Assembly (NCBI GenBank): GCA_002839095.1
Contig: PGXL01000001.1
Span: 248,001-312,000 of the forward strand
Length of the DNA: 64,000 bases
Direction: 5' to 3'
From: Tenericutes bacterium HGW-Tenericutes-2
Lineage (GTDB): Bacteria; Bacillota_I; Bacilli_A; Acholeplasmatales; Acholeplasmataceae
A program made the position numbers and the translations under genes. Below the pieces are notes generated by a model. That model was not told where the DNA came from, searched no databases, and was given only the letters and a program-made list of their open reading frames with translations. Positions 21,895 through 58,018 of this stretch are shown in pieces. The number at the start of each line of letters is the position of its first letter. Within the stretch, counting starts at the first letter, position 1.

Positions 21895-24800
21895 CTAATG
21901 AACTGTTCCTGGTAAATAAGTAAAGAATGTTCTTGATGTTGAAACACCGCCATCTGTTACAGTGATTGTGTAGCTGACTGTCATTGCGCGATCCGGCATT
22001 TTGATTACTCTACCTGTTTGATCTACGTACTCAGGGTTGTTAGATTCGAATAGAATTGTACGTTCTCCTTGCGCATGTCTAACCTTAAATTCTGCATCAG
22101 CCATTTCCTGAAAGGTTGGTACCATACCACCTGTTAACATCCCTTGAGGACATATTTTTCCAGAAAAGTCTTTATGGAACTTGATGTGCTCGCGTGGGAG
22201 ATTGTATCTAAATAACATGTCTGCAGCAAGTTTTGCTGTTCTTTGGAATGTTAAATACATGTCTTCATCTTGAGCAACTGACATTTCGATACCAATACCA
22301 TTTCTATTTCCACCGCCTAAATAAGTAAGACTTGTTCCTGGAAGTGATGAACCATCACCTGCATGATATGCGATTTCATTTTCTGGAACATGCTGATAGG
22401 TGACTCTAGCATCCATAGTGTAATGCCATGAAACATTTAGTACTGTCCCTGCCTGTGCAGCGTTCCATAAGTAATTAGCGTGTGATAATGCACCTGCTCC
22501 TGGATTTGTATTTGCAGTTTCATGAACAACTACCCAGTACACATAATCCGAATTGTAAGGAGTGACTCCGGCTGGATGTGCAGGTTTTAAAACACCTGGA
22601 CGGATTCCAGAACTAATTGGTAGCATTTTGGATAAATTCACGTCAATATTTTGGAATAAATATCTAGATACACTATCATATCTTACTTCTGTATAATTGA
22701 ATCCTGTACCATATTGTAGCCATGAGCGTTGACTTGAATAAGCAACTTGATATGATGTTAATAAATCCAATAAATCATTTTCTTCATCGAGCGATGAATA
22801 AATGCTAATCGTATAAGTTGTTTGAATTGATGGGTCATCAACAAGTGTTGCTGTAAAGGTAACTTCTCCTGCTGCTAGTGTTGTGACAAAACCAGATTCA
22901 CTGATGGTGGCTATTGAAGAATTCGAAGATGAAAAATCTACCTCAGCATTCGAAATATCAAATGGGAATGGAGTTGCACTTAATGTAAATGTATCTCCAA
23001 CGATTAAATCATTTTTCTCATGAGTCGTTTGAAGTTCAATTCCAGGAGTGGTTGTTACAGTGATAGTAATTGTAACTTTGATGTTAATATCCGCAGATGA
23101 ACGAAGCGTCAACGTTACAACTCCACTCTTTAATGGGTTCAATGCCCCAGAGATTGTATTGACCATCATGATTTCAGGATTTCCTGTAATCCATCTCACT
23201 CTATCTGTCGTTAGTTCCATAGGTAATATGTCATATTGTAATGTGTAGAAATCGCCTAAGGTAATGTCTGTAATAGGGTTTGTAATTACAAAGGTGACAG
23301 GTAGTGCTTCATTATAAACAAGCTCAGAAATAATACTTGTCTTTGCTTGATATGCTCCTCTTAAATAGTAAGAATCAATATTAGGGAATAGGGAAAGATT
23401 TGTTTCATCCCCGCCCCAATAATTAAGCGTGAAATCTACGGTTGAGCTTGCTTCTGATTTCGCATGAGCTGTAGTAGAACCTACAACTGAATTGAATCTT
23501 GCATAGGCTAAAATATTCTTTTCAGTGCCTGCATATTTTTTATTGATTTCAATACCAATTGTTGCATTACTAATATCGTTTCTTGAGACCTTAATTGCTG
23601 TTGTATCTGCATATTCTGAAACAGCTGAAACGATGATTGCTTGGAATACATTTGTAAGTATATTTTTTTCAATAAGAATAGTTCCACCTAAATAATCAGT
23701 AACGACGATTGCATCTTGATTGAGATTTGTAATTGTATTGGATGCAACTGTTAATCCTGTGACTTTACTCATATGTAGGAATGGAGCATCAGTAGTTGTT
23801 AAATTGTTTGCTGTATTGTTTTTGAATGTGAAGTTTTCAATTGCTGTGTTTGAGAAAACATGAGAATTACCAGCAAATGTGAAACCATCAATAGTTACAT
23901 TATTACCTTGAACTTCAATACCACCTTGAATGGTTGCTGTTGTTTGAGCTTTTAATGTAACTTGATTTTGTTCGATTGTGAAATTGCCATTATAGGTTCC
24001 AGCAAATACCACGATTGTTGCAAAATCTGAAGCATGTTCAACTGCATCAACGATGGAAGCGAATAAGTCTTTACCATATTCAAATTCCATTCCCATATAA
24101 GTGACTGTATCCGATGCAACTTTTGTTTCATCAACAAGTACATAATTCACAACTTCAAGATTGAATGTATCTGTAATTGCATTATCATAAATTGACTTAG
24201 CAGTTATGATTACATTACCAGGTTTAAGCGCGTTAATTAAGCCGTTTTCATCAATAGTAGCAACAGTTTCATCACTACTTTCCCAAGTCACGAAAGCATA
24301 GGATAGATCTGGAGAAACATCAATAGATAATGATTGATCAGAGCCAACATTAACCTTTGATTCACCAGTAATCATTATAGCTTCAGTTAAAGCATAAACC
24401 TTAACTAAAACTTCATCGAATACTTCAGTATCATAACTAGAACGAATTGTAACTTTGACTTCGCCAACACCAACAGCAGTTACTAATCCAGATGGATTTA
24501 CTGTAGCTATTAATTGGTTATCGGATTCATAGGTTACGTCCGCATTACTCTCGTAGGTAAGCTGTGTTGTACCACCCACCCAAAGTGATTCTTCTTCTGA
24601 GTTTGCTTCTAGTGTGACAATCTTTTTCACATCGATTTCAACTGTTACAGAAAGGCTTGAACTCTTAGTTGATTGTATTGTTAGATTTGCCTTACCTTCA
24701 CTAACACCTGTAATTAAACCTGCTTCACTTACTGTGAATATGTTTTGATTACCTGATGTAAATGTTACAGTATCATTAGCTGTAAAAACTACATCCTTCG

Positions 24801-25161
24801 ATTCTCCAACCTTAACAATCATGGTTGTACTTGGTACAGTTAACGTATAGTTTTTGCTAACCGTAACTGTAATAACAACCTTAACTTCTGGATCATCTTT
24901 TGAGCTAACTGTTACTGTAGTTTCACCCTCAGCTAATGCAGTGATTAAACCTGATGCATTCACTGTTAGAATTGTTTGATTTCCAGATTCAAATTGCAGC
25001 CCCTTGGAGTCGTTTGTATCAAAATCTATTTGATAGGTACCTCCTTCAATTATACTGACATTTAAATCATCAACATCGATGGTGATTGAACCTCCACAGG
25101 CAACTAAACCAATCGAAATAAGACCTACGACAAGCATATAAAATATTTTTTTAAGTATCAT
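21895..25161 (-). CDS. Lipoprotein N-acetylmuramoyl-L-alanine amidase with Big2 and beta-helix stalk
   Basis: 1088 aa; the lipobox LVAC lipidates Cys22. Four Big2-like Ig repeats (about residues 28-340), a right-handed beta-helix region (about 345-600), two more Big2 repeats (about 620-785), then an Amidase_2/PGRP-type catalytic domain (about 840-1035) and a short beta tail. Zinc ligands match T7 lysozyme: His880 (VVHETAN), His996 and Cys1004 in HKDFSGKICP, with Lys1002 at the catalytic-lysine position. It should remove stem peptides from MurNAc outside the cell, producing the denuded glycan that GHL10 and NamZ enzymes use. Its start overlaps the stop of the beta-lactamase-fold gene. No clear terminator is seen in the 138 bp after it. 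Confidence 0.9.
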   Translation of the reverse strand: MILKKIFYMLVVGLISIGLVACGGSITIDVDDLNVSIIEGGTYQIDFDTNDSKGLQFESGNQTILTVNASGLITALAEGETTVTVSSKDDPEVKVVITVTVSKNYTLTVPSTTMIVKVGESKDVVFTANDTVTFTSGNQNIFTVSEAGLITGVSEGKANLTIQSTKSSSLSVTVEIDVKKIVTLEANSEEESLWVGGTTQLTYESNADVTYESDNQLIATVNPSGLVTAVGVGEVKVTIRSSYDTEVFDEVLVKVYALTEAIMITGESKVNVGSDQSLSIDVSPDLSYAFVTWESSDETVATIDENGLINALKPGNVIITAKSIYDNAITDTFNLEVVNYVLVDETKVASDTVTYMGMEFEYGKDLFASIVDAVEHASDFATIVVFAGTYNGNFTIEQNQVTLKAQTTATIQGGIEVQGNNVTIDGFTFAGNSHVFSNTAIENFTFKNNTANNLTTTDAPFLHMSKVTGLTVASNTITNLNQDAIVVTDYLGGTILIEKNILTNVFQAIIVSAVSEYADTTAIKVSRNDISNATIGIEINKKYAGTEKNILAYARFNSVVGSTTAHAKSEASSTVDFTLNYWGGDETNLSLFPNIDSYYLRGAYQAKTSIISELVYNEALPVTFVITNPITDITLGDFYTLQYDILPMELTTDRVRWITGNPEIMMVNTISGALNPLKSGVVTLTLRSSADINIKVTITITVTTTPGIELQTTHEKNDLIVGDTFTLSATPFPFDISNAEVDFSSSNSSIATISESGFVTTLAAGEVTFTATLVDDPSIQTTYTISIYSSLDEENDLLDLLTSYQVAYSSQRSWLQYGTGFNYTEVRYDSVSRYLFQNIDVNLSKMLPISSGIRPGVLKPAHPAGVTPYNSDYVYWVVVHETANTNPGAGALSHANYLWNAAQAGTVLNVSWHYTMDARVTYQHVPENEIAYHAGDGSSLPGTSLTYLGGGNRNGIGIEMSVAQDEDMYLTFQRTAKLAADMLFRYNLPREHIKFHKDFSGKICPQGMLTGGMVPTFQEMADAEFKVRHAQGERTILFESNNPEYVDQTGRVIKMPDRAMTVSYTITVTDGGVSTSRTFFTYLPGTVH

Positions 25162-26209
25162 GATTTTCCTCCCATTCCTTAAAAATCATATTTCCGATTT
25201 TGTTTCTAAATTGAATAATTTGATTCATATCTCTTTTGGGATGTACAGCGTTACTTAATAGTACAAACCCAAGCTGATTCTTTTTATCAATAAACATATT
25301 ACAGCCTGTAAATCCGGTATGGATAATCGTATCTTCAAAGGATAGATGATCTCCAGCAGAGCTATGTCCTTGAGGCTTATCCCAACCAAGTGCTCTAGTT
25401 AGAATATCACCCTTAAGATTAGGCTTTTCCTCTCTTAGCTGAAATAGTTCATTTAGGTACTTCTTGTTTAATACAAACCTATCTTGAAGAATAGAAATCA
25501 TGAATTTTGAAATATCCTTAGCAGTTGAAAATAAACCTGCATGTCCTGCTTCACTACCTAAAGCAAATGATTTTTCGTCATGAACTAAACCCTGTAATAA
25601 GCCGTGATAAACATCATCTGCTCTAAATTCTGTAGGTGCACATCTTTCCCTGTTTGGATGATAGGATGTATCATACATTTCTAATGGCTTAAAAATCATT
25701 AAAGCTGCGTAGGTATCTAGGCTCATTTGTGTTAAAGCTTCAATAATCCAACCAAGTAGGATAAATCCAATATCAGAATAAATTATATTTTCACCTATTG
25801 GATAGATTAAATCCATTTCATAAACCTTATTTTTCACATCATCCTTTCCCTTTAATCTTGATGCTCTGGCTATATCTGCAGGGAGTCCGGATGAGTGAGT
25901 TAATAAATGGTAGATATTGATATCTTGGTGTTTAAATAACGGTAATATAGAACTTACTTTCGTATCTAATGTAAGTCGATTGTTTTCAATTAATGTCATG
26001 ATCATGGTTGTTGTAGATATAACCTTGGTTAAAGATGCTACATCATAGATTTCATCACCTGAATTTAAAACCTTTTCAGGTAAAAGACTCTTATATCCTA
26101 CGTAGTCACAAAAACTTTCCCCATTTCCATGAACAACACACCATGATGCACCAGGAAAACATCCTTGATCAACGCCTGTTTGTAACAACTCTTTTATTTT
26201 TTTATACAT
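25151..26209 (-). CDS. Serine hydrolase of the beta-lactamase/AmpH-YbbE class
   Basis: 352 aa penicillin-recognising fold. Ser59-x-x-Lys62 (SLTK) is the nucleophile motif, Tyr144-Ser-Asp the second motif, and HTGFTG near residue 300 stands in for KTG. It lacks a signal peptide, so it is probably cytoplasmic, in contrast to secreted PBPs. A related gene (ybbE) lies in the B. subtilis namZ-nagZ-murQ operon, supporting a role on peptidoglycan fragments, for example as a D-Ala peptidase or esterase. It overlaps both neighbours by a few nucleotides. Substrate unknown. Confidence 0.85.
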   Translation of the reverse strand: MYKKIKELLQTGVDQGCFPGASWCVVHGNGESFCDYVGYKSLLPEKVLNSGDEIYDVASLTKVISTTTMIMTLIENNRLTLDTKVSSILPLFKHQDINIYHLLTHSSGLPADIARASRLKGKDDVKNKVYEMDLIYPIGENIIYSDIGFILLGWIIEALTQMSLDTYAALMIFKPLEMYDTSYHPNRERCAPTEFRADDVYHGLLQGLVHDEKSFALGSEAGHAGLFSTAKDISKFMISILQDRFVLNKKYLNELFQLREEKPNLKGDILTRALGWDKPQGHSSAGDHLSFEDTIIHTGFTGCNMFIDKKNQLGFVLLSNAVHPKRDMNQIIQFRNKIGNMIFKEWEENHDT

Positions 26210-31299: not shown

Positions 31300-32613
31300 T
31301 TATTTTTCCTCGTAGTAAGTCAAATACTTTTTGTGTGCAATAACAAGTTCATTGAATACCTTTTCTGCAGTTGTAATAGATGTAGTTGATGGATGAATTT
31401 GAAGCGCTAATAGAGCCTTCTTTAAATCCTTTTCATATATGGCGTCTGTTAACAATTCCTCAAATGCCTTCATCGATTGTATTAAACCTCTAATTTGAAC
31501 TGGTAGTCTTCCGATATGGACAGGTACAGGACCATCCTTTGTAATGCGACATGTAATTTCAATCGCACAGCCATCAGGTAGATCTGTAATATGTCCATTA
31601 TTGATTGTGTTGACGACCTGATAATCTCTTTTATCGTTATAAAGTGATGAAATGATCGAGCATGCAACATCGCTATAATATGCTCCGCCACGACTTTCTA
31701 ATTCCTTTGGCTTCACATTTAAATTTAAATCCTTATATTTTTCAAATAGAGTTGTTTCTAATTTTTTAACTAATTCAGCTCTTGTTTCTCCAGCCTCATA
31801 GGCTTTGATGAACTTAGCATACATTTCTGCATTATAGTAATAATACTTATGATATGGGGATGGATAAACTCCTAATTCCTTAACAAACTCATATTTCCAC
31901 GCAAGTGGATCAATATTATTCATTGTCATTTGAGATTCTTTAATTTGTTCTATGATTTCAGGAAGTCTATCTTTATTCTTATGAAAAACACTTAATACAT
32001 ATGACATATGATTCAATCCCGCAAAGTAGGGAATTAAATCCTTTGATTTCACTTTTAATACTTCAGCAAAATGGTTGGTCATGTTAATTGGAACGTTACA
32101 TACACCGATGTAACGATCAAATTCAGCATATCTAAATACTGCTTCACTTACAACTCCCGCAGGATTTGTAAAGTTAATTAACCAAGCATGCTCACAAAGT
32201 TCCTTCATATCCTTAATAATATCAAAGATGACAGGAACTGTTCTCAGTGCTTTAAATACTCCACCGGCTCCGTTAGTTTCCTGACCAAGCATACCATATT
32301 TTGCAGGTATTCTTTCGTCTAAGACTCTAGCATCTAGTAAGCCTACACGCAGCTGTGTAGTAACAAAATCAGCATCTACTAAAGCTTCTCTTCTATCGAG
32401 TGTTAAATGAACTTCCATCGGAAGATTCGCTTTTTCCACCATACGCTTTGCTAAAGCTCCAACGATTTCTAGCTTTTCTCTGCCTTCTTCAATATCAACT
32501 AACCATATTTCTCTAATGGGTAGCTCCTTATATCTTTTAATAAATCCTTCAATTAATTCTGGTGTATAGGATGATCCTCCACCAATCGTTACTATTTTTA
32601 TTCCAGGTCTCAT
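31300..32613 (-). CDS. GH4 6-phospho-glycosidase (LicH/CelF type)
   Basis: 437-aa NAD- and metal-dependent family 4 glycosidase. The N-terminal dinucleotide motif IGGGSSYTPEL, INFTNPAG near residue 150, the metal-site CNVP near residue 175, GLNHMSYV near residue 205 and GGAYYSDVA near residue 310 (Tyr base) are all of the 6-phospho-beta-glucosidase branch. Such enzymes cleave 6-phosphorylated disaccharides from PTS import; here no PTS is present and it sits between a kinase and GHL10 enzymes. It may therefore act on a kinase-phosphorylated amino-sugar disaccharide. It overlaps the upstream kinase stop as ATGA. Ordinary 6-phospho-cellobiose activity is the null hypothesis. Confidence 0.88.
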   Translation of the reverse strand: MRPGIKIVTIGGGSSYTPELIEGFIKRYKELPIREIWLVDIEEGREKLEIVGALAKRMVEKANLPMEVHLTLDRREALVDADFVTTQLRVGLLDARVLDERIPAKYGMLGQETNGAGGVFKALRTVPVIFDIIKDMKELCEHAWLINFTNPAGVVSEAVFRYAEFDRYIGVCNVPINMTNHFAEVLKVKSKDLIPYFAGLNHMSYVLSVFHKNKDRLPEIIEQIKESQMTMNNIDPLAWKYEFVKELGVYPSPYHKYYYYNAEMYAKFIKAYEAGETRAELVKKLETTLFEKYKDLNLNVKPKELESRGGAYYSDVACSIISSLYNDKRDYQVVNTINNGHITDLPDGCAIEITCRITKDGPVPVHIGRLPVQIRGLIQSMKAFEELLTDAIYEKDLKKALLALQIHPSTTSITTAEKVFNELVIAHKKYLTYYEEK

Positions 32614-33590
32614 AATAACACACAGCTTTCATCAAGATTTTTAATTATATCGTCATCTTGCTCAATTCCTAATTCATCTAATGCAAATAGATATGCACCT
32701 ATAACTGGTTGATATTTTGGTTTTACAATATAGGCGTTTGGACATTCCTTTTTTAAGGTTTTTTCGAATGATTCTAGATAATATTTAGCAATGCCAGAAA
32801 AGACCTTACCACCTACCACGACTGGAACATTCTCTTTATTGATTCCGACTTGCTTCATGACACCAATTGTTTGTTCACCGACAAAGCTTGCAAGTCTTGT
32901 TAGAATTTCAATGGATACCGGATCATTTTTTACTGCTAGGTCATTCACTAGCGCAGTAATTTCACCATATTCCTTTTTCGTTACCTTTGGAATCGGATAG
33001 AAAAAATCGATCACTTCACTCATTTCACTCACTTTAAAGATTTTAGGTATTTCAATTTTAAGGAGTGTATCTTCATGTGTCATTTCGTCTGCACGAAATG
33101 CATAATGAAGTGCTTCTCTAGCAATATCTAATCCACCACCATAAATACCTAGGGTAAATCCTAGAGATCTAAGAATCGCTTTTTTGCCTGATTTGTTCAT
33201 AGCTGCTGAATTGGTCCCTGTTCCAGAGATTGCTACAGCACCATATGCTGATTTTAGTCCACTACGCATCACAATCCATGCGTCGTTAACAACCTTAAAT
33301 GGGATATCATGAAATATTTCCTTACAGGCCTTATTAAGCTTTATAAAATCAGACTCCAGGTCAGCTCCAGATAACCCTAGGAAAACATAGGATATATCTT
33401 GATCAGTGATTTGAAGGTTAGTCTTCGCTTCAAGAAATAGATTTTCAATAACCATTTGGAATAGGTGTCCATCCGTTGATGCGTGATTACATCCACTTCC
33501 AATTTTTTCATAAAGTAAATGACCTAAATCATCTAATACTGCGAGATGTGTTTTTGTTCCGCCACCATCAAAGGCAATTATATATTTCAT
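32610..33590 (-). CDS. BadF/BadG-type amino-sugar kinase (second copy)
   Basis: 326 aa ASKHA kinase: IAFDGGGTKTHLAVLD (residues 5-20), VAISGTGTNSAAM and LGIYGGGLDIAREALH near the middle, and VVVGGKVFSG late. It is related to, but clearly diverged from, the kinase at 1759, so it probably has a different substrate such as a disaccharide or GlcNAc. It is ATGA-coupled to both anmK and the GH4 gene. Its product could be what GH4 hydrolyses. No signal peptide. Confidence 0.82.
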   Translation of the reverse strand: MKYIIAFDGGGTKTHLAVLDDLGHLLYEKIGSGCNHASTDGHLFQMVIENLFLEAKTNLQITDQDISYVFLGLSGADLESDFIKLNKACKEIFHDIPFKVVNDAWIVMRSGLKSAYGAVAISGTGTNSAAMNKSGKKAILRSLGFTLGIYGGGLDIAREALHYAFRADEMTHEDTLLKIEIPKIFKVSEMSEVIDFFYPIPKVTKKEYGEITALVNDLAVKNDPVSIEILTRLASFVGEQTIGVMKQVGINKENVPVVVGGKVFSGIAKYYLESFEKTLKKECPNAYIVKPKYQPVIGAYLFALDELGIEQDDDIIKNLDESCVLL

Positions 33591-34744
33591 ATATTCCCCT
33601 TAAAGTAATAATTGACTTGTCCAAGAATAACATTTTCTTTTGCACCAGTTGCATTTTTAATATTAGAGGGATTCATATGAATCGTTTCATTTCCTAAAAT
33701 GATAAAGGCTAGTGCTTCCTTTGAGCTACTGTTCATCCCGAGATCCTCTAGCACTCTTATTTTTATAGAAGGTAATTCATTTTGAATGAGTTCTAATAAA
33801 TACTGATTATAGGATCCACCACCACAAAAGATAATTTCATCTATATTAACTTTTGGTAATATAAAGCTTTGATAGGAAAAAGTAATTGATTTTGCAGTAA
33901 ATTGTGTCAGTGTATGAATCATATCTTCATTTGAAAAATGATTATATTTAGATATAAGCTTTTCTGTATATTGGTCTCCAAATAATTCTCTTCCAGTTGA
34001 TTTTGGAGGTAGTTCCTTTAAATATGGGTGACTCATGAGTTCATCTAATAATTTCTGGATGACTTTTCCTTTTTTTGCTGTTTCTCCGTTTTCATCATAG
34101 GGCTTATGAAATAGCTTTTGCATCGCATAGTCAATCATCATATTGCCTGGACCTGAATCAAATGCAAAAACGTCGTCAGTTTGACAACCCCTTGGCAAAA
34201 CAGTCATATTTGCAATACCACCAATGTTATGAATCGCTCTGCTGACCTCATCACTTCTAAATAAAATGAAGTCTGCATAGGGCACCAGTGGTGCACCTTG
34301 CCCACCAGCCGCAATATCAGCTGCTCTAAAGTTAGAGACGACTGTAGTCTTGCATCTAGCTGCGATGACCGCTCCTTCACCTAATTGCAGTGAAGACTTG
34401 ACTTGATCTTCATTAGGTTTTCCTATATGAAAGATGGTTTGTCCATGAGAAGCGATAAAATCCACATCATCCATTCGAATATTTTCTTCTTCACACAAGC
34501 GTTTGGCAGCGCTTGCAAAGGCTTCGCCTAATTCAAAGTTCAGACTGCATAGCAATTCTGAATCACTTTCTTTGATGGAGAAGCTCTTTCTAATTTTTTG
34601 TAGAAGAGAGGCTTCAAATGGATAGGTTTTATATGCAATAAGATTTACTTTTGTTTGAGTGAATGTACCTTCGATCTCTGAAATTAAGACATCGATGCCA
34701 TCTAGAGAGGTTCCACTCATCATGCCTATAGCAAGTTTCTTCAT
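33587..34744 (-). CDS. anmK: Anhydro-N-acetylmuramic acid kinase AnmK
   Basis: 385 aa, full length. The N-terminal IGMMSGTSLDGIDV motif, ASHGQTIFHIG near residue 98, NFRAADIAAGGQGAPLVPYAD near residue 122, NIGGIANMT and FDSGPGNMMIDY are AnmK hallmarks. It opens and phosphorylates 1,6-anhydroMurNAc, made by lytic transglycosylases, to MurNAc-6P, the substrate of MurQ encoded 33 kb away on the same strand. First gene of the 7-gene operon to 21895, with AGGTG close before the ATG and a palindromic operator at its promoter. Its presence implies that 1,6-anhydro ends reach the cytoplasm. Confidence 0.96.
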   Translation of the reverse strand: MKKLAIGMMSGTSLDGIDVLISEIEGTFTQTKVNLIAYKTYPFEASLLQKIRKSFSIKESDSELLCSLNFELGEAFASAAKRLCEEENIRMDDVDFIASHGQTIFHIGKPNEDQVKSSLQLGEGAVIAARCKTTVVSNFRAADIAAGGQGAPLVPYADFILFRSDEVSRAIHNIGGIANMTVLPRGCQTDDVFAFDSGPGNMMIDYAMQKLFHKPYDENGETAKKGKVIQKLLDELMSHPYLKELPPKSTGRELFGDQYTEKLISKYNHFSNEDMIHTLTQFTAKSITFSYQSFILPKVNIDEIIFCGGGSYNQYLLELIQNELPSIKIRVLEDLGMNSSSKEALAFIILGNETIHMNPSNIKNATGAKENVILGQVNYYFKGNI

Positions 34745-34796: not shown

Positions 34797-34857
34797 GAAT
34801 CCAGTCCTTTAGGTTGTTTTTTTCAAATTAGAAAAAAAACGAGCATTTCTAGAAAAA

Positions 34858-34904: not shown

Positions 34905-35741
34905 TTATCTCTTGAACTTCTTAAATGTCTTATAGGTCATTTCTAAAGTTCTTACGCTTCTGTCGATATCCGTATATGCACAATGTGCAAATAGGGCATC
35001 TACCATACAAAACTGTGAGATTCTTGAAGTCATCGCAGCACTTCTAAATTCTCCCTCTAAGGATGATGTGTAGAGCACAACATCAGATAGCTCAGCAAGC
35101 ATTGAAGCTCCTAGCTTCGTAATGCTTATAATCTTCGCCTTATTTTCTTTAGCTACTAAAGCAGCACTTATAATTTCCTTTGTTTTACCTGAGTTGGAAA
35201 TAAAGATAATAACATCCTTTTGATTAATGAAGGATGCGTCAACCAATTGCTCATGGCTTTCACCCTGTGCGATACAAAACTTATTGATTCTTCTTAGCTT
35301 CATCTCTAAATCCTTGCAGACTAAATAAGATGACCCTTTACCAAAGATCAATATCTTTCTCGCACTCATAATCATTTCAGCAGCCTTCATTACGGTTGCT
35401 TCATCATAAAGCTTTAGGGTATCTTCTAAAACTCTTATATTATTTTCTACTGCAGATAGCCCGCAATGAGAATCCTTAGCTAAAATAACATCTGCGTATT
35501 CTTTATTTTCAGGAATTTCTACCTTAGCATTGGCTAAAATGAAATCGATCTTAAAGTCTTTAAATCCCTTATATCCTAGCTTCTTACACATTCTCACAAC
35601 AGATGCTGGAGATGTATAAGCAGCTTCAGCTATTTTTTCAACAGAGAAGTCTTTTAAGACGGCTTTGTTTTCGATTAGGTAATCTAAAACAACACGTTCT
35701 GCCATGCTTAGGTCTTCTTTGTACTTTAACATATTTAACAT
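34905..35741 (-). CDS. MurR/RpiR-family transcriptional regulator
   Basis: 278 aa: N-terminal HTH_6 domain (about 1-78; SMAERVVLDYLIENK and the recognition helix region SPASVVRMCKKLGYKGFKDFK) and a C-terminal SIS domain (about 110-260; ILIFGKGSSYLVCKDL and FISNSGKTKEI) that senses phosphosugars, MurNAc-6P in E. coli MurR. Its place next to anmK and the amino-sugar genes makes MurNAc-6P or GlcNAc-6P the likely effector. The strong AGGAGG is 17 nt from the ATG; an in-frame ATT three codons upstream has ideal 8-nt spacing, so the protein may start a few residues earlier. Confidence 0.88.
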   Translation of the reverse strand: MLNMLKYKEDLSMAERVVLDYLIENKAVLKDFSVEKIAEAAYTSPASVVRMCKKLGYKGFKDFKIDFILANAKVEIPENKEYADVILAKDSHCGLSAVENNIRVLEDTLKLYDEATVMKAAEMIMSARKILIFGKGSSYLVCKDLEMKLRRINKFCIAQGESHEQLVDASFINQKDVIIFISNSGKTKEIISAALVAKENKAKIISITKLGASMLAELSDVVLYTSSLEGEFRSAAMTSRISQFCMVDALFAHCAYTDIDRSVRTLEMTYKTFKKFKR

Positions 35742-35911: not shown

Positions 35912-37309
35912 CTAAATAACTTTACCTGGATTTAGGATATTTTTAGGGTCGAATGATTTTTTGATCCCTTTCATAATTTCCATTTGTTTACCGCCTAAGA
36001 GCTTTTGCATATATTCTCTTTTTGCATAGCCAATACCGTGTTCTCCTGAAACAAGACCACCATAGGTAAATGCTTTTTCATACATGAGGTTAAATCCCTT
36101 AGAAACTTTTTCCTTCCACATTGCATCACTTAGGTTGTCCTTGCAAAAATAGATATGAAGATTACCATCTCCAACATGACCAAAATAAGGAATTCTTACA
36201 CCAATTTCTTGAGATAGTTCTCTAACATATTCTAAGAATGCACCAATATTTGAACGTGGTAGAACAACATCACATTCATCAATTTCTGAGGTGGATGCTT
36301 TAATCGCTTCTAAAAAGCCACCACGAACATTCCATACACTACTTCTACGTTCCTCTGTATCGACTAAAAAAACATCGATTGCATTATACTTATTTACACA
36401 AAGTGATGAGGCAATTTCAATATCCTCTTGAATTGCAATTTCATTATTTCCATCATAGCTGATTAATAAATAAGCTTCGAAATTGTTATGAGGGATTTTC
36501 TTTCCTAGGAATTCTTCTGAGTATTGAAGAGATTGTTTTTCTAGGAATTCAACAGCTGTTGGAATGACGTGATCCATTATTAATCTTGGTGCTGCAGCAA
36601 TCGCATCTTCTCTATTTTTAAATGGAACGAGTAGACTAATTGTTTTCTTAGGCTTTGGTATTAGCTTTAGGGTTGCTTCAACGATGATACCTAATGTTCC
36701 TTCAGAGCCGATAATTAGGTCCTTTAAGCCATATCCTGTTGAGTTTTTAACAACCTTACCACCTAGCTTGATTAATTCACCATCTGGAGTAATAACCTCT
36801 AGGCCACGTACCCATTCTCTAGTGACACCATATTTAATCGCACGCATACCGCCAGCATTCGTGGAAATATTTCCACCAATGGTCGCGGTCTTTTCACCTG
36901 GGTCTGGTGCGTAAAATAATCCTTCTTTTTCAACACATTCATAGATATCTAGAAGTAATACGCCTGGTTCTACTCTAAGTGTTAAATTGGTTTTATCGAG
37001 TTCAATGATTCGATTCATTTTAGAGGTATCTAATAAGATTCCACCAAATAAAGGAACACACGCTCCTACTAATCCTGTACCACTACCTCTGACTGTAACT
37101 GGAATATTATATTCATACGCATATTTCATAATCATTTGAACTTGATTTTTTTCTTTGACAATAACATGTGCTTCAGGAAAAGATACTACGGTTCCTAATT
37201 CATCATGTGCAAAGTCTTTTTCGATATCATTTAAGACAGTAACATTTTCATTTCCAACTAAGGCCTTTAAAAAGCTAAAATCTTCATTTGTCATCTTTTT
37301 ATAGTTCAT
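35912..37309 (-). CDS. lctD: FAD-dependent D-lactate dehydrogenase (LctD/GlcD family)
   Basis: 465 aa flavoprotein with a PCMH-type FAD-binding N-terminal half (PVTVRGSGTGLVGACVPLFGG near residue 74, GEKTATIGGNISTNAGGMRA near 137) and a C-terminal FAD-oxidase_C half (PYFGHVGDGNLHIYF and SGEHGIGYAKREY with the active-site His region). This is the D-lactate/glycolate dehydrogenase family. It is the third cistron after ETF beta and alpha, ATGA-overlapping ETF alpha; this order matches the lctBCD genes of acetogens, whose complex oxidises lactate with NAD+ while consuming reduced ferredoxin. MurQ releases D-lactate, so the locus context favours D-lactate as substrate. Glycolate or another 2-hydroxy acid remains possible. 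Confidence 0.88.
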   Translation of the reverse strand: MNYKKMTNEDFSFLKALVGNENVTVLNDIEKDFAHDELGTVVSFPEAHVIVKEKNQVQMIMKYAYEYNIPVTVRGSGTGLVGACVPLFGGILLDTSKMNRIIELDKTNLTLRVEPGVLLLDIYECVEKEGLFYAPDPGEKTATIGGNISTNAGGMRAIKYGVTREWVRGLEVITPDGELIKLGGKVVKNSTGYGLKDLIIGSEGTLGIIVEATLKLIPKPKKTISLLVPFKNREDAIAAAPRLIMDHVIPTAVEFLEKQSLQYSEEFLGKKIPHNNFEAYLLISYDGNNEIAIQEDIEIASSLCVNKYNAIDVFLVDTEERRSSVWNVRGGFLEAIKASTSEIDECDVVLPRSNIGAFLEYVRELSQEIGVRIPYFGHVGDGNLHIYFCKDNLSDAMWKEKVSKGFNLMYEKAFTYGGLVSGEHGIGYAKREYMQKLLGGKQMEIMKGIKKSFDPKNILNPGKVI

Positions 37310-38505
37310 GATTTTTCCTCCATGATTTGATCAATTAATAGATTGAGTTCTGGTAAGACTTGATAGATATCACCAATAATTGAATAGTGACTTATATCAA
37401 ATAGCTTATTATGCTCATCGCTATTCACGGTTATAATGAGTTCCGCTTCCTTCATGCCTTCAATATATTGAACAGCACCACTAATTCCTAGATTAATAAT
37501 TAGTTTAGGTTTAACCGTTCTACCACTTAAACCGATTTGTTTTCTTGGATCAAACCAACCATTTTCAATTAAAGGTCTAGTGCATCCAATTTCTGCATTT
37601 AATTTCTTTCTTAGGGGTTCAATCAACTCTAAATCCTTTTGTTTCTTAAATGCTCTACCTACAGCGATGATCACCTCTGCATCACTTAAATCAGAGACAA
37701 CCGGCTTATGCAACGTTTCTAATAAATGAATGGTTGAATCTTTCTTAATCAAGTCAGTATCTTCTTTATGGATGATACCAAATGGAGTGACTTGTTTTGG
37801 TGCATTAAACATCTTATAGCGAATAGTAGCCATTTGTGGTCTATGATTTGGTGTATTGATTTTTGCCATAATATTACCACCAAAGGCTGGTCTTATTTGC
37901 AAGAGTTCACCATCTGTAGTTATATCAAGCATTGTACAATCTGCTGTTAATCCTGTTTTAAGTCTTGCTGCTACTCTTGGTGCGAAGCTTCTTCCTCTTG
38001 GGGTTGATCCATAAAGGATCACATTATTTTGATACTTCTTATAAAATGATTCCATTACATTGGTATAAAGCTCAACATTGAAATCCTTAAATGATGGATG
38101 ATCATATAGAAAGACTTCATCAACACCGTAAGTTAAGGCTTCATGAGCGATATGTGATACATTTTCACCGATCACAATCGCGAATACCTTTTCTTTGGTT
38201 TTAACTGATAGTTCCTTTGCTTTACCAATGAGCTCCCATGAAACATGGTGAGCCTTTTGGTTATGAATTTCAACGTATACTGCAATCCCCTTATAATCGG
38301 CTTGATTGATCTTATATTTCTTAGTTTCAACAAACTCACAAACACCATCAGGTCCTTTTTTTACGCAAACTCTACAGATCTTACAAGAAGCGTTGATCGA
38401 TAAATATGCATCTGTATAATCAAAGGCATTGAATGGGCAAATATCGATTAACTTTTTAGCAATTTCCGGACTGACTTTATCTTGATTGACTTTAATATAT
38501 GCCAC
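37306..38505 (-). CDS. lctC: Electron-transfer flavoprotein alpha subunit with ferredoxin-like N-terminus (LctC type)
   Basis: 399 aa, longer than ordinary EtfA (about 320). An N-terminal extension carries Cys23-Pro24, Cys41, Cys44, Cys47 and Cys56; CxxCxxC plus CP would hold one [4Fe-4S] cluster, as in LctC. Then the ETF alpha/beta domain (about 70-255) and the C-terminal FAD domain (GLSGRTVKPKLIINLGISGA and IITVNSDEHNKLFDISHYSIIGD). Start is GTG at 38505 after AGGTG. It lies 10 nt after ETF beta and overlaps the dehydrogenase by ATGA. The iron-sulphur extension points to ferredoxin-coupled electron confurcation. Confidence 0.88.
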   Translation of the reverse strand: MAYIKVNQDKVSPEIAKKLIDICPFNAFDYTDAYLSINASCKICRVCVKKGPDGVCEFVETKKYKINQADYKGIAVYVEIHNQKAHHVSWELIGKAKELSVKTKEKVFAIVIGENVSHIAHEALTYGVDEVFLYDHPSFKDFNVELYTNVMESFYKKYQNNVILYGSTPRGRSFAPRVAARLKTGLTADCTMLDITTDGELLQIRPAFGGNIMAKINTPNHRPQMATIRYKMFNAPKQVTPFGIIHKEDTDLIKKDSTIHLLETLHKPVVSDLSDAEVIIAVGRAFKKQKDLELIEPLRKKLNAEIGCTRPLIENGWFDPRKQIGLSGRTVKPKLIINLGISGAVQYIEGMKEAELIITVNSDEHNKLFDISHYSIIGDIYQVLPELNLLIDQIMEEKS

Positions 38506-38515
38506 AATAATTCAC

Positions 38516-39307
38516 CTATAAAAAACGACTTTCTTTCAGTATTTTAAACATATCCTTGGCAAGCTTTTCTTTATTGCCCTTCATTACAATCGCTTCTGTT
38601 CTCTTCACTGGTGGAAATATTTCATCCACTTGAGTTGGAGAACCTGTTAAACCGTAGTTATCCGGATTTTGATCCTTTAAATCCTTTAAGGAAACCATCT
38701 TGATATGATAGTTTTTAAACTCAACTTTTCTTAAGTAAGAAGGTAGTCTTGGTACATTGGCATCCTTTTCCACTGTAATTAAGCATGGATAAAAAACTTC
38801 AACAACTTCATCATAGTTATCATAAGCACTACGAAGAATAATTGATTTTTCTTTGACTTCAATAATTTCCTTCACATATGGTACGTGAGGGATATTTAAA
38901 AATTCAGCCATTTCAGGACCGACCTGTGCAGTATCACCATCTGTAGTTTGCTTGCCGCAAATAATTAAATCATAATTTGCGATATGGGTTACGAGTTGAG
39001 ATAATGTATAAGAAGTTGCGAGCACATCTGCACCAGCGAATCTTCTATCACTAATCAGGGTCGCTTCATCAGCTCCCATGTGTAATGCTTCATATAAAAC
39101 ATTGTTTGCTGAAGGAGGTCCCATGGTAATAGAATGTACGATGGAGTCCTTACTTAAGCTTTTAATTTGAAATGCAGTTTCAAGTGCATATAAATCAAAG
39201 GGATTCATTTTAACATTGTTTCCATCTCGGATTAAAACACCTGTTTTTGGATCCACTTGAACATTCGATGATGCCGGTACTTGTTTGATACATGTAATTA
39301 TCTTCAT
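38516..39307 (-). CDS. lctB: Electron-transfer flavoprotein beta subunit (LctB type)
   Basis: 263 aa of the EtfB family: MKIITCIKQVPASSNVQVDP start, NPFDLYALETAFQIK near residue 39, GADEATLISDRRFAGADVLATSYTL near residue 83, and the family signature region DLIICGKQTTDGDTAQVGP near residue 117. The frame is open to 39373, but the ATG at 39307 follows GAGGTAG and gives the canonical EtfB N-terminus. First cistron of a three-gene operon with ETF alpha and the dehydrogenase; a palindrome lies just upstream. Confidence 0.9.
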   Translation of the reverse strand: MKIITCIKQVPASSNVQVDPKTGVLIRDGNNVKMNPFDLYALETAFQIKSLSKDSIVHSITMGPPSANNVLYEALHMGADEATLISDRRFAGADVLATSYTLSQLVTHIANYDLIICGKQTTDGDTAQVGPEMAEFLNIPHVPYVKEIIEVKEKSIILRSAYDNYDEVVEVFYPCLITVEKDANVPRLPSYLRKVEFKNYHIKMVSLKDLKDQNPDNYGLTGSPTQVDEIFPPVKRTEAIVMKGNKEKLAKDMFKILKESRFL

Positions 39308-39340: not shown

Positions 39341-39355
39341 CATATCATAGATATG
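39341..39355. promoter_or_regulatory. Palindrome upstream of lct-type operon
   Basis: CATATC-ATA-GATATG, a perfect 6-bp-arm palindrome 34 nt before the ETF beta start, close to -10-like sequences on the minus strand (TAGAAT, TATATT). Candidate operator for a lactate-responsive regulator; none is encoded adjacent. Confidence 0.35.
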
Positions 39356-39359
39356 ATAA

Positions 39360-39392
39360 TAAAAAAAGAACATGCGCCAAAAGACGCATGTT
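39360..39392 (-). terminator. Terminator after phosphodiester glycosidase gene
   Basis: Stem AACATGCG/CGCATGTT (39385-39392 with 39369-39376, 8-nt loop) followed by TCTTTTTTT on the minus strand. Confidence 0.8.
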
Positions 39393-39426
39393 TTGTCATC
39401 ATTAGATAATTTTTTTCAAGTATTCG

Positions 39427-41837: not shown

Positions 41838-42686
41838 CTAAATCATTTTTTGAATCCTTTTAGCTACATCCTGTTTAAATCTTTCGATATAATCTAAGAC
41901 ATAGGTTTCGATGTTTAACTCAACATCTTTTACAAGCGGTGTTAAATCCATAGCAAATATTAAGGCTGAAGCTTTATCTACTGCATGTGAGGTTGAATAG
42001 GTTGCATGTGCAACTCTTCTACCTGTCGTTGCGAGATCATAACGCTTACCACCGATAATTTGAGAATCAAATACTTCAACTAAAGCTTGAGCAAGATTTG
42101 GATGATCGCTCACATTGAAGACTACTTTTTCTTCATCTAACATCCAATCTAAATCTCTCCATACTTCACAGCCATAAACCTCTTTTGGTCTAAATTCTTC
42201 TGGAAGCTTACGAATCGCTTTGATCACCTTGGTGGTCACACCAATGTGTGTATCATGCTTATCAGCAAGATTATGTGTATATAATACTTCAGGATTAGCT
42301 AGCTTGATTAATAAAGCCAGTTCATCAACTAATTCTTGATTTTTAGGGTCTTTTGTTTCAGAGCTTGGATAGTCTAATAAGGCAAGTGCTCCAAATTCTC
42401 CGATATAAGCTGCCTTCTTTTGTTCAAGGCGTCTTACTTCAATCATTTGTTCATCGGTGTAGTTCTTATAGATAGAATCTCTTGCACTTCCTGAACCGTT
42501 TGTTACAACGACTCCAAAGAATGACTTGTCATCCTTACCAAAGCATTTGAGAATACCATCATAAGCCATAATTTCGATATCATCTTGATGAGCAGCAATG
42601 GACATATGGGTAGTTCTTTTAATTGCAGTTTCAATATCGGTTTGATCTGGAATAAAGAATTCTGCAGTTTTTTTGTTTAATTTCAT
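41838..42686 (-). CDS. PIG-L/LmbE-family deacetylase
   Basis: 282 aa zinc deacetylase. The AHQDDIE motif supplies His33, Asp35 and Asp36, and the downstream HNLADKHDTHIGV gives the remaining zinc His. Family members deacetylate GlcNAc moieties (BshB, MshB, PIG-L). Start is the ATG at 42686, right after the stop of the kinase gene (TAAAATG) with GAGG upstream; the frame opens with GTG at 42695. Tight coupling to a sugar kinase suggests it acts on the kinase product or substrate. Since no NagA is visible in the window, it is a candidate for deacetylating an amino-sugar phosphate, but this is inference. Confidence 0.85.
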   Translation of the reverse strand: MKLNKKTAEFFIPDQTDIETAIKRTTHMSIAAHQDDIEIMAYDGILKCFGKDDKSFFGVVVTNGSGSARDSIYKNYTDEQMIEVRRLEQKKAAYIGEFGALALLDYPSSETKDPKNQELVDELALLIKLANPEVLYTHNLADKHDTHIGVTTKVIKAIRKLPEEFRPKEVYGCEVWRDLDWMLDEEKVVFNVSDHPNLAQALVEVFDSQIIGGKRYDLATTGRRVAHATYSTSHAVDKASALIFAMDLTPLVKDVELNIETYVLDYIERFKQDVAKRIQKMI

Positions 42687-42687
42687 T

Positions 42688-44106
42688 TTATACACCTCGA
42701 TACCTCTTATTTAAGTCAGGAAGACTAGCAGCAGCAACCGATTGGCCAACGCGTCTACTCTTTTCATCTGGCAATGTAATCTTGATTCGTTTTGCTAAAT
42801 CAGGAGATTCAGCCTCTAATACAAGCTTTGCATAATGAATGATTCTAGAACCACCTAAACCTGAGGTGACTCTACCTAGAACAAGAACATGTTTGATGTC
42901 ATAAAATGCTTGATAACCTAGTATATTATAACCCAAATATATTCCAATTGTGTCAAAAATTTTTAAAATTTTTTCATTTCCTTTAGAAATTTCATTTTGT
43001 AAATATTCTAACTTCTCTGCTGGTGATAAATCAGGATTAATTTTGATTTGATTTTGTTCTGCAAGCTTAATTGCTGCATCCTGAGAAAAATACTTAACAC
43101 CACATCCATAGTCTAATGACCATTCATCAATCATTGCATCTGGATTGTAATCTGCTGGAACAAATGCGAGTTCGTTTAACCATCCTGTAATATTACCTTT
43201 GGCATCAACGTAGCCTGCAGCTTGAGAAGTTCCCATAGCAATCCCTAGGACTTGATTGGATTCTAGGCTCATCGCTCCTGCTAGTGCAGTGACATCTCCA
43301 TCATTAGCGACTTCGATTGGTACATCACCTAACTCTTTAGCAATGTTAATAAACATGTCTTTGACATGGAGGTCAAATTCAGGCTTAGGAACCTTTATGA
43401 ATAGGGATGCTGCCATGACACGATTATCGATATAAACTCCTGCAGCGGAGACACCAATAGCATCTACTCGAGGCATTTTGGATGCTGCGGTTTTTATAGA
43501 GTCTAAGATTCCTTGATAATGATAGGTAGGGTCTGTTTGTAATTTAGGATGCCAAACGACTTCCTCTGAATAGATAGGTACTCCATCAACTACAGCTGAA
43601 ACTTTTCTATCGGATCCACCTGCATCAAAGCCTATACGATAGCCTTCTAGATGTCTTCCTAAGGGTGCTGATTTTTCATTAGAATCCTTAATCTTATCTG
43701 GAGTAGTAAGTTCTACTGTAAATTCCTTTTCATAGATTCTGGTCATAAACTCTCGGTCGAACTCACGAAGTCCACCGACTGAGTAACAATCCTTAATATA
43801 ATTTCCTATAGACTTAGGTCCACCAAATATAATCTTCCATCCACCTTTAATCCATAATAAGGATTTAATAAGTCTTTCAATATAGAAGATATTGGATTCA
43901 TATTCATTTTCACTATCATTAAAAACAAAGGTCTTGTAGACCGATTGAATGCCTTGGTTTCTTTCAATAGCAATCACTACTTGTTCTGGATTGTTAGACT
44001 TCATCACAGCCTCTAAATAGTTAGCATTCGCTAGATAGATTGGTCTAAAGTTTGGATCCATCTCTGATATAATTTTTGGTTCAACACTATACTTAAATGA
44101 TTTCAT
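42688..44106 (-). CDS. ROK/ASKHA-type sugar kinase-like protein with N-terminal extension
   Basis: 472 aa. Residues about 1-150 form an extension I do not recognise. A kinase core follows: GFDAGGSDRKVSAVVDG (phosphate-1), VDAIGVSAAGVY, VANDGDVTALAGAM (catalytic Asp region, ROK-like NDG) and LGIAMGTSQAAGYVD. The core resembles ROK glucokinases but the CxCGxxGCxE zinc motif is absent and DYGCGVKYFSQDAA takes its place. It leads a two-gene operon with the PIG-L deacetylase. The upstream region has a good -10, a shared 26-bp element and no Shine-Dalgarno within 20 nt of the ATG; a tiny leader ORF overlaps its start. Confidence 0.75.
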   Translation of the reverse strand: MKSFKYSVEPKIISEMDPNFRPIYLANANYLEAVMKSNNPEQVVIAIERNQGIQSVYKTFVFNDSENEYESNIFYIERLIKSLLWIKGGWKIIFGGPKSIGNYIKDCYSVGGLREFDREFMTRIYEKEFTVELTTPDKIKDSNEKSAPLGRHLEGYRIGFDAGGSDRKVSAVVDGVPIYSEEVVWHPKLQTDPTYHYQGILDSIKTAASKMPRVDAIGVSAAGVYIDNRVMAASLFIKVPKPEFDLHVKDMFINIAKELGDVPIEVANDGDVTALAGAMSLESNQVLGIAMGTSQAAGYVDAKGNITGWLNELAFVPADYNPDAMIDEWSLDYGCGVKYFSQDAAIKLAEQNQIKINPDLSPAEKLEYLQNEISKGNEKILKIFDTIGIYLGYNILGYQAFYDIKHVLVLGRVTSGLGGSRIIHYAKLVLEAESPDLAKRIKITLPDEKSRRVGQSVAAASLPDLNKRYRGV

Positions 44107-52907: not shown

Positions 52908-55900
52908 TTAAACGTTTGAATCTTGTCTTTTTCTAATAAAGAATACTAATGCAGCGCCAATGACTAAGCTGAATGTAACAAATACAGCACTTGTAGCGTT
53001 TATTGATGAACCACAACCTGTTTCAGGAGCAACAGCTGCTGCATCAATTAAATCTTGAATATCTTCTTCTGCTTCAGCTAGTCTAGCTTTTGCAGCATTT
53101 AATTCAGCTAATAAGCTTGCGATACTTGCTTCTGCAGCAGTTAATCTACCTTCTGCAGTACCAAGTCTATCTTCAGCATCTGTTGCTCTACCTAGTGCAT
53201 CATCAATACGACCGTTTGCAGTTGCAATAAGTGCAGTTAATGAGTCAACTTGTTGAGTAATTGCTGCAGTTAAGTTAGAATCACCTGATTGTATAGCTGC
53301 TTCTAGGCTTGTAATTGCTGCTGCTAAGGCTGCTGCTGATGTAGAATTACCTTCGCTAATAGCAAGTTCTAATGCTGCACGTGCATCTGCGAGTGAATTT
53401 GCAGCACTAACAAATCTAGCATCAATTAATTCAAATTGATCAGATAAAGCATCTACAAGAGCTAAGAATTCTGCATCTACATCCTTAGTTAAAGCAACTA
53501 GTGATTCAGTAATCACATTAATTGATGACTGAATAGAAGGAATCAATGCAATGCTTGTTTCAGCTGTAGTTAATCTTGTAAGAACAGCGTTGATTTGAGT
53601 TTGTAAATTAGCGACTTGAGTTGCTAACGCTGCTGCATCTTCATAATGTGCATTGAGCAAGTCTGAAATTTGATATGACAGTTCTGCCAGTGCTTCTTCT
53701 GTATTGTTGATGTCAATCCATCTTGCATAGAATGTAGTTGTTGGAGCAGTTCCAGCGACTTTTGGTGCTTTTATTGTTCCAAGTTCATCTGTATACCAAC
53801 CAGCAAAGATGAATCCTGTTTGAGTTGGGTTAGGTATTGTAAAACTTGTACCTGGTACATACGAAACAGTTTGATCAACACTATCAGGATAGTTGAGATC
53901 AAGTATATAGTTGCCAGCTATAGCGAAATTCATAACTAGTGAACCATATCTAGTACGTACGTTTGTAGAAGCGGTACTACTACCAGTACCAAAATATAGA
54001 TAAACGATTCTGCTAGCAACTGGAGTTGTTGGAGTTCCTGAAATAGTAAACTTACCATAATTTGGACTTAGAGGATCGTTGAATCCATTTGCTGCAGATG
54101 GTGCTTGTAAAGTAATACCAGCTGGAAGTGCACTTGTTGAATGATTTAAGTTCGTAGATGTAGTTGCAGTAGCTGAGAATGCAGCACCCCAGTATAAATT
54201 ATTTGTTAATGTTAATGCTGGTAGAGGTAAGAAGTTTGGATTTACAGTAAATGTGCCTGTAAATGGTTGACCAACGATTAGAGTAGTATCACCACTATAT
54301 GTGAAATATGGTTCAACTCTTACCGTGTAAGTGCGTTGATAAGTGTTATTACCACCACCTGTACCTACCCAATTTGTCTCAGTTAAATATCCACCGACCA
54401 CGAAAGTATAAATACCTTCAGTTGTAGCTGTTCCAGTAAGAGTTCCATCCGCATTGAATGTTAATCCTGCAGGAATTGTACCTGATTTAATCATATAGCT
54501 AACTCTTAGATCTTCTGGAACTTGATCGCCAGCAACTGATAATGTGCTTGGCATACCAAGTGGAGTATATAGAGTAGCTGCAGTTGTTACGCTCCAAGGA
54601 GATGCAACTAAACCATTCTTCATAACGTTAGAATTAACTGTAGTATATAGAATTCTATGTACTAGGTTACGATATGCTGCCCATTGTGTATAAGCTTCAA
54701 TAGAGTCTCCAGCAACATAAGGAACAAATCCATCAGCTAATGCTTCTGCATCAGATGCATACATCATAGATGCAGGTTCACTTGTTACAGCGTCCTTATA
54801 TGCTCTTGATGCACCACCATTGACATTTTGTGGGTCATAAGTTGTAGCAGTTGGCATTGTAACGATTAATACATTCTTCGTTTCATCCCATACGCCATCC
54901 ATATTACGACCAAAGTTTGTTTGCCATGAGTTTAGAGGAACTTGGTTTGAACGAGCTGACATGTTTGCAGTTGTTAATGTGTTGTCATTGTTGAAGTAGT
55001 CAGTAATTGAATAACCTTTGAATCCCCATTCGTCATGTAATAATTTTTCATATAAATAATAGTTTGCAGTTGGGTGTACTAAACCTGAGCTTGGATATGC
55101 ACTCATTGTTGAGTTTGCATTACCATACTTAATAGCCCATTCAAATGCACGTACATATATTTCTCTTGATGTTTGTTCATCTGCAAATGTATGTAATGTA
55201 TATCTTGAAGTTTCTTGTTCGTTTAAGAATAAGTGCTTCATGTAAACGATCGTACCAGTTGAGGTTGCACCTTTAACTTGGTATGCTCCCATTAGACCTG
55301 TTACGAGTGGATCTTGTGAGAAGTATTCAAAGTTTCTACCACCTGGAGAAAGACGATGCATTTGTAAGCCTGGTCCATACCAACCTTGAGCACCATTCCA
55401 TAGTGAGTGTTCGCCTTGCATTCTACCTACTTTTTCTGCATTTCTAACATCAAATGTAGATGCCATATTTGCAGCAGCACACCAGTGTGTACCGATACCT
55501 CCACCTGAACCACCATTTTGGCTGTTAGGGAATGCACCAGGACCATCAGCATTTGCTGAAGCTGGACGACCGATTGAAGGAATTGGATTTTGAGCAGAGT
55601 TGTTAATCAGTGATTGTATTTCGGCCCAAGTCATTTGGTTAATGAACTCATCCCACTTAATATCATCATATGCTACATTAGCCATTTGCCATAATTGAAT
55701 CAATGTCTTACCATTAACTCTTGCTGCTACATCAGCAGTTGATGCCTGAGTCCAATGTGTTGGAATCTCTTCTTTAGCAACATACCATGGGTCTGATTTC
55801 AAATCGTTAAATGAAGTATATGCTGCTTGAGAATCCATAATTTGAATTGCTTCATCAGAGAACTTTAAATCATCCTTAGTTGGAGGAGTTGGGAATGTTC

Positions 55901-57938: not shown

Positions 57939-58018
57939 ATAAATCTCCTTTTCCATTTTTTCTTTTTTGTGAAGGTAAGATAAACCTATTTAAACTTGAA
58001 TGTAAATAAATCTATTTA

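Follow-up and report, generated by a model that had tools for sequence, protein, structure and literature searches.

A gene set of the order etfB-etfA-lctD, on the reverse strand at 35912-39307 of the 64,000-nucleotide stretch analyzed here (hereinafter the window), very probably codes for a soluble electron-confurcating D-lactate dehydrogenase whose physiological substrate would be D-lactate that MurQ, the N-acetylmuramic acid 6-phosphate (MurNAc-6-P) etherase, releases within the cell. Each N-acetylmuramic acid (MurNAc) degraded by MurQ leaves one D-lactate, the use of which by strict anaerobes has had little attention. The window spans positions 248001-312000 of contig C47 in the assembly of Tenericutes bacterium HGW-Tenericutes-2 (Acholeplasmataceae; genome G000: 2.30 Mb, 52 contigs, 99.9% complete).

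An Ldh-EtfAB-type complex and its predicted confurcating residues

The genes and the sites discussed below, all on the reverse strand, are:

38516-39307: etfB (lctB), NAD+/b-FAD subunit of Ldh-EtfAB (open reading frame [ORF]; PDB match 7QH2_B)
37306-38505: etfA (lctC), shuttle subunit with an N-terminal one-cluster ferredoxin domain (GTG start; 7QH2_A)
35912-37309: lctD, FAD D-lactate dehydrogenase subunit (ORF; 7QH2_C)
38365-38439: ferredoxin-domain [4Fe-4S] motif C(x)17CxxCxxC, with cysteines at 23, 41, 44 and 47 (regular-expression match)
37199-37201: LctD Glu37, proposed flavin-potential tuning residue (107/107 EtfA-linked LctDs)
36893-36895: LctD Glu139, proposed flavin-potential tuning residue (107/107 EtfA-linked LctDs)

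The sequence-only reading had described an electron transfer flavoprotein (ETF) β subunit, an ETF α subunit with a ferredoxin-like extension, and an FAD D-lactate dehydrogenase in lctBCD order, and the ORFs, domains and structural matches agree with this description. Pfam and NCBIfam assign ETF, ETF_alpha, and FAD_binding_4/FAD-oxidase_C domains to the three products, and 7QH2 is the best PDB match for all three subunits (LctB, 9.7e-89; LctC, E=1.8e-125; LctD, 6.2e-185). Compared with the LctB, LctC, and LctD proteins from a metagenome-assembled genome labelled Acetobacterium woodii, they are 54, 51, and 58% identical, respectively. The gap between etfB and etfA is 10 bp and etfA overlaps lctD by 4 bp; a longer ATG start for etfB is open at 39373, yet the orthologues begin with MKIITC. 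The window ETF has no paralogue in its own genome, since the only ETF-domain matches there are those of etfB-etfA themselves. By homology, the genes at 35912-39307 are thus confirmed as encoding a complex of the Ldh-EtfAB (LctBCD) type.

Residues bearing on confurcation were taken from the cryo-electron microscopy (cryo-EM) study of the A. woodii Ldh-EtfAB (PMC9232219), which names C(x)17CxxCxxC as the ferredoxin-domain signature; this signature was found by regular expression in 29/29 EtfA orthologues examined. The window EtfA has Arg205, which contacts the N5 of b-FAD (PMC9232219), and EtfB has the NAD-site SDRRFAG at position 86 and the Ser-Pro-Thr (SPT) anchor at 223. In LctD the lactate-site residues and the metal ligands are in place, with L80, R329, L333, E345, D347, H378, H385, Y387, E423, and H424 invariant across 15 orthologues. 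Glu37 and Glu139, which lie between the FADs and have been proposed to lower the flavin potentials for confurcation (PMC9232219), are both kept in all 107 LctDs with an EtfA nearby. With these residues conserved, the window complex is most likely electron-confurcating and ferredoxin-linked.

LctD and MurQ co-occur and are often genomically linked

Counting as LctD orthologues in the survey of the order proteins of 54% identity or more, we found LctD in 33 and MurQ in 39 of 150 genomes: 33 have both, six MurQ alone, and 111 neither. Across the class (395 genomes), MurQ is present in 51/53 genomes with LctD vs 51/342 without it; the Fisher p-values of 2e-27 for the order and 7e-33 for the class are too small, as related genomes are not independent. 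The pattern extends over several families, and the window's own genus has 12 species with both genes and six with neither.

The survey of lct-murQ proximity envisaged in the sequence-only reading likewise comes out strongly in its favor. Among the 53 LctD-containing genomes of the class, murQ lies within 6 kb of lct in 19 and at 29-37 kb in 14 more, on the same strand in 33/33. An etfB-etfA-lctD-murR-anmK-GH4-GHL10 order is kept across much of the order, and two loci from other Bacilli (L093 and L081) have a single operon, namZ-nagZ-(kinase)-anmK-murQ-alpha/beta hydrolase-etfB-etfA-lctD, whose genes overlap or are spaced by a few to about 25 bases. The alpha/beta hydrolase gene between murQ and etfB lies at L093:7221-7961 and L081:7251-8003. 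In two further genomes (G033 and G004) lct adjoins murQ or lies within a few kb of it, and the remaining loci among the 80 fetched, mostly from Clostridia, have no murQ near lct. A tree of LctD groups the lactate-operon enzymes within a 65-row clade (SH-aLRT 95), to which none of the mur-linked enzymes belongs. With LctD-bearing genomes nearly always MurQ-positive and one-operon forms found elsewhere, the pairing of lctBCD with the MurQ pathway appears well supported on genomic grounds.

Lct-type EtfAB is restricted to genomes with pyruvate:ferredoxin oxidoreductase

The window's genome encodes a pyruvate:ferredoxin oxidoreductase (PFOR; TIGR02176, 1709 bits) and, on contig C44, an rnf cluster including rnfC and rnfD; a second, nqrB-F-like sodium pump cluster lies at about 206.6-210.4 kb of contig C47 (L159). 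When the 39 MurQ-positive genomes of the order are divided by PFOR, all 30 with PFOR have LctD, in 29 of them with EtfAB adjoining; the exception, G028, has a contig that ends about 120 bases past lctD. LctBC is found in 0/9 of those lacking PFOR (Fisher 5e-8), though these nine belong to two genera only and represent few independent events. One of the nine, G027, has an unlinked ETF.

Three genomes, G012, G021, and G065 (99% complete), have an LctD gene adjoining the murR-like gene and anmK (L059, L056, and L052) and no ETF or PFOR match anywhere in the genome. Their LctDs retain all checked lactate-site residues, and each has lost one of the two glutamates (E37K in G012, E139Q in G021, and E37Q in G065). 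Loss of Glu37 or Glu139 alongside EtfAB fits the cryo-EM proposal and supports confurcation in the window enzyme. The restriction of Lct-type EtfAB to PFOR-containing genomes and the conservation of Glu37/Glu139 point to ferredoxin coupling. The joint absence of ETF and PFOR with loss of one or the other glutamate amounts to a natural experiment on the structural proposal for flavin-potential tuning.

The surrounding island, its host and its promoters

The window as a whole reads as an island for the catabolism of peptidoglycan and sugars, which also includes ABC permeases, binding proteins, and two GHL10 proteins. Its relevant genes, all on the reverse strand, are:

108-836: nagB, glucosamine-6-phosphate deaminase (TIGR00502, 307 bits, cut-off 236.9)
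857-1768: murQ, MurNAc-6-phosphate etherase, the D-lactate source (TIGR00274, 393.7 bits, cut-off 302)
1759-2676: BadF-type kinase, candidate MurNAc/N-acetylglucosamine (GlcNAc) kinase (PF01869, 1.1e-31)
2669-4240: nagZ-type GH3 beta-N-acetylhexosaminidase (NF003740, 216 bits, cut-off 207)
4230-5381: namZ exo-beta-N-acetylmuramidase (NamZ_N, 2.7e-86; NamZ_C, 4.6e-45)
21895-25161: N-acetylmuramoyl-L-alanine amidase-domain and Ig-like-domain protein, presumably secreted (Amidase_2, 2.3e-18; Big_2)
25151-26209: beta-lactamase-fold (AmiE-like) hydrolase (PF00144, 3.7e-49)
31300-32613: GH4 glycosidase (PF02056/PF11975)
32610-33590: BadF-type amino-sugar kinase (PF01869, 1.4e-21)
33587-34744: anmK, anhydro-MurNAc kinase (NF007142, 563 bits, cut-off 435)
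34905-35741: murR-like RpiR/SIS-domain regulator adjoining lctD and followed by anmK (HTH_6 and SIS)

The wording 'murR-like' for the gene adjoining lct proved apt: an RpiR/SIS regulator is indeed encoded there, and its score is far under the MurR equivalog cut-off (NF012026, 104.8 vs 408 bits). Copies of this regulator beside lctD share 73-98% identity over the order, and the product of 34905-35741 is far more conserved than the adjoining anmK. A PIG-L deacetylase and a 472-aa protein (41838-44106, reverse strand) travel with lct in most Acholeplasmataceae loci; the latter has no Pfam or NCBIfam match, and its start resembles the sugar-kinase ATPases (DAGGSDRK). In the large GH3 proteins at 52908-57956 and 59023-61902 (reverse strand), the GH3 C-terminal domain precedes the N-terminal domain.

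The sole Mur-ligase-domain match in the window's genome is a gene coding for a 413-aa protein (Mur_ligase_M, 1.1e-12), probably folC; in a number of other members of the order 5-7 such matches are found, the best at about 1e-45. The host is therefore probably wall-less, with no sign of wall synthesis, and the island would accordingly digest foreign walls: as judged from gene content, peptidoglycan is most likely not made by this host. Independent support comes from a slurry in which 13C-labelled dead Escherichia coli was assimilated chiefly by Acholeplasma (PMC4628116). Genome G004 (L063) has an lct-murQ-anmK-nagZ-namZ arrangement together with 17 Mur-ligase-domain matches, which may reflect either that a wall-making lineage also has it or a mixed assembly.

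The region upstream of etfB has several elements, again on the reverse strand:

39369-39392: terminator-like hairpin lying after the NAGPA gene and before etfB (sequence)
39402-39419: TTGAAAAAAATTATCTAA box upstream of etfB, common to anmK; possible operator (sequence match)
34809-34826: TTGAAAAAAACAACCTAA box upstream of anmK, kept in most orthologous anmK promoters

Because the hairpin separates the NAGPA gene from etfB, the latter probably starts its own transcript. The TTGAAAAAAA..CTAA box stands before anmK as well as before etfB and has only two perfect matches in the 64 kb; as a candidate operator for the murR-like protein it is only suggestive. Directly upstream of etfB, at 39343-39353 (reverse strand), is a TATCTATGATA palindrome that is conserved in many relatives, is not enriched within the window, and may represent an operator or a -10 element.

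Predicted route of D-lactate and alternative explanations

In the route that we propose, NamZ, NagZ, and amidases would degrade foreign peptidoglycan, kinases would convert the product to MurNAc-6-P, and MurQ would split this into GlcNAc-6-P and D-lactate. LctD would then oxidize D-lactate to pyruvate, and EtfAB would hand the electrons to NAD+, driven by the oxidation of reduced ferredoxin (Fd); with the A. woodii stoichiometry, the reaction would be lactate + Fd(red) + 2 NAD+ -> pyruvate + Fd(ox) + 2 NADH. PFOR would convert pyruvate to acetyl-CoA, one turnover restoring the ferredoxin used by one turnover of Ldh, such that the net of both would be lactate + 2 NAD+ + CoA -> acetyl-CoA + CO2 + 2 NADH; Rnf could adjust the ferredoxin pool. 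A lactate importer would be unneeded because the lactate arises inside the cell. The earlier suggestion that the lactyl side chain is oxidized to pyruvate by confurcation thus gains support from the absence of a permease (see below), the fit with PFOR, and the conserved confurcation residues. We further lean, with rather less assurance, towards a wider scenario in which wall-less Bacilli and their relatives live by a fermentation dedicated to peptidoglycan: the MurNAc lactyl group would be oxidized by confurcating lactate dehydrogenase and PFOR, which together would close a ferredoxin cycle. In species that have lost PFOR, EtfAB would have gone too, and LctD would have come to use another electron acceptor, losing one flavin-tuning glutamate.

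Besides the limits on the above counts, several observations weigh against MurQ as the source of the substrate. The window murQ lies 34 kb from lct, although the two share an island and a strand, and lct probably forms its own transcript apart from murQ. An anmK-promoter matrix finds clear etfB sites solely in some close relatives and one further species. MurQ was not detected in two LctD-positive genomes of the class (G447 and G202), and a family designated f22 has the two genes together but unlinked. NagA is absent from the window ORFs scanned, no genome-wide search for it having been made. Moreover, the methylglyoxal synthase in the window's genome provides a second possible intracellular source of D-lactate, and LctD-type enzymes can accept other D-2-hydroxyacids. 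For the window complex we infer the substrate enantiomer, direction, flux, and regulation; the enzyme assay cited for A. woodii used D/L-lactate (PMC9232219).

An ordinary lactate-utilization operon importing environmental lactate, as in Clostridia, would account for a complex that is the same as in A. woodii and gut lactate users (PMC8914356), but is very unlikely: a lactate permease (Lactate_perm) gene was found in 0/33 LctD-positive genomes of the order, no true LarA racemase lies beside lct, and the near-complete co-occurrence with MurQ and the operon fusion with murQ also speak against it. LctE-like permease, LarA, and LctA genes are found near lct in 17, 22, and 21 loci, respectively, all outside the Acholeplasmatales set. 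Lar_N matches in 12/33 LctD-positive genomes were considered as a lactate racemase and set aside, since they are weak (1e-5 to 1e-16) and none adjoins lct. Growth on lactate is absent in Peloplasma (PMC11122141), a cultured member of the family that was not checked for lct genes. Highly improbable, too, is a different 2-hydroxyacid substrate for LctD, such as glycolate or D-2-hydroxyglutarate. GlcD is the top-scoring NCBIfam match for LctD and the mammalian homologue is termed a general D-2-hydroxyacid dehydrogenase (PMC10589216); however, the GlcD score of 383 is under the cut-off of 568, and LctD is 58% identical to the A. woodii-type LctD, with every listed lactate-site residue retained.

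Disposal of D-lactate arising via methylglyoxal, or through a D-lactate dehydrogenase of the cell itself, would be in keeping with the methylglyoxal synthase found in the window's genome and in 23/33 LctD-positive genomes. This enzyme is, however, equally present in LctD-negative relatives (4/5) and missing from 10/33 LctD-positive genomes, and hence does not track with lct as MurQ does, leaving such a role extremely unlikely, although no search for an NAD-dependent D-lactate dehydrogenase was made. We give as little credence to the complex working in reverse, with pyruvate reduced by NADH and reduced ferredoxin produced: the reaction is reversible, and an A. woodii mutant formed lactate via LctBCD (PMC13372834), but the linkage to a D-lactate-producing pathway and the lack of EtfAB in PFOR-less species fit better with the oxidative direction, and PFOR already supplies reduced ferredoxin. 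Confurcating oxidation of the D-lactate released by MurQ hence remains our preferred explanation.

Relationship to known systems and biological implications

The Ldh-EtfAB enzyme and the MurNAc sugar pathway are each already known. Their coupling appears to be undescribed; the sequence-only reading had met with no such description, and open-access literature searches found no account of an lctBCD-MurQ pairing. MurQ-dependent MurNAc catabolism in E. coli, Bacillus subtilis, and Staphylococcus aureus involves gene sets comprising murQ, anmK, nagZ, namZ, an AmiE-like gene, nagB, and a murR-like regulator, all with counterparts in the window. Unlike these species, the host is apparently without peptidoglycan synthesis, implying catabolism of foreign walls rather than recycling, and the D-lactate would have a dedicated ferredoxin-linked oxidase.

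The window complex, at 51-58% identity, shares with the A. woodii Ldh-EtfAB (7QH2) its etfB-etfA-ldh order and a one-cluster ferredoxin domain; Arg205, the NAD site, the lactate site, the SPT anchor, and Glu37/Glu139 are likewise common to both. It differs in its setting, an island for peptidoglycan sugars or, elsewhere, a single operon that includes murQ, and in lacking the genes for the LctA regulator, the LctE permease, and the LctF racemase that complete the clostridial lctABCDEF set. The lctBCD core is also common to the gut lct clusters (PMC8914356), which, unlike the window, have a permease, a racemase, and a LutR-type regulator; the text of that survey has no word starting with 'mur' and mentions no mur genes. 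The Ldh-ETF-Bcd cluster of Fusobacterium nucleatum likewise pairs a D-lactate dehydrogenase with an ETF, but this is reported to be a canonical ETF feeding Bcd (PMC12630350), whereas the window ETF has a ferredoxin domain and no adjoining Bcd gene.

If correct, our proposal would add a role in the use of wall sugars to a complex known for the use of external lactate. It would also give wall-less bacteria a concrete way of living on dead bacteria, with their redox balance explained by two enzymes.

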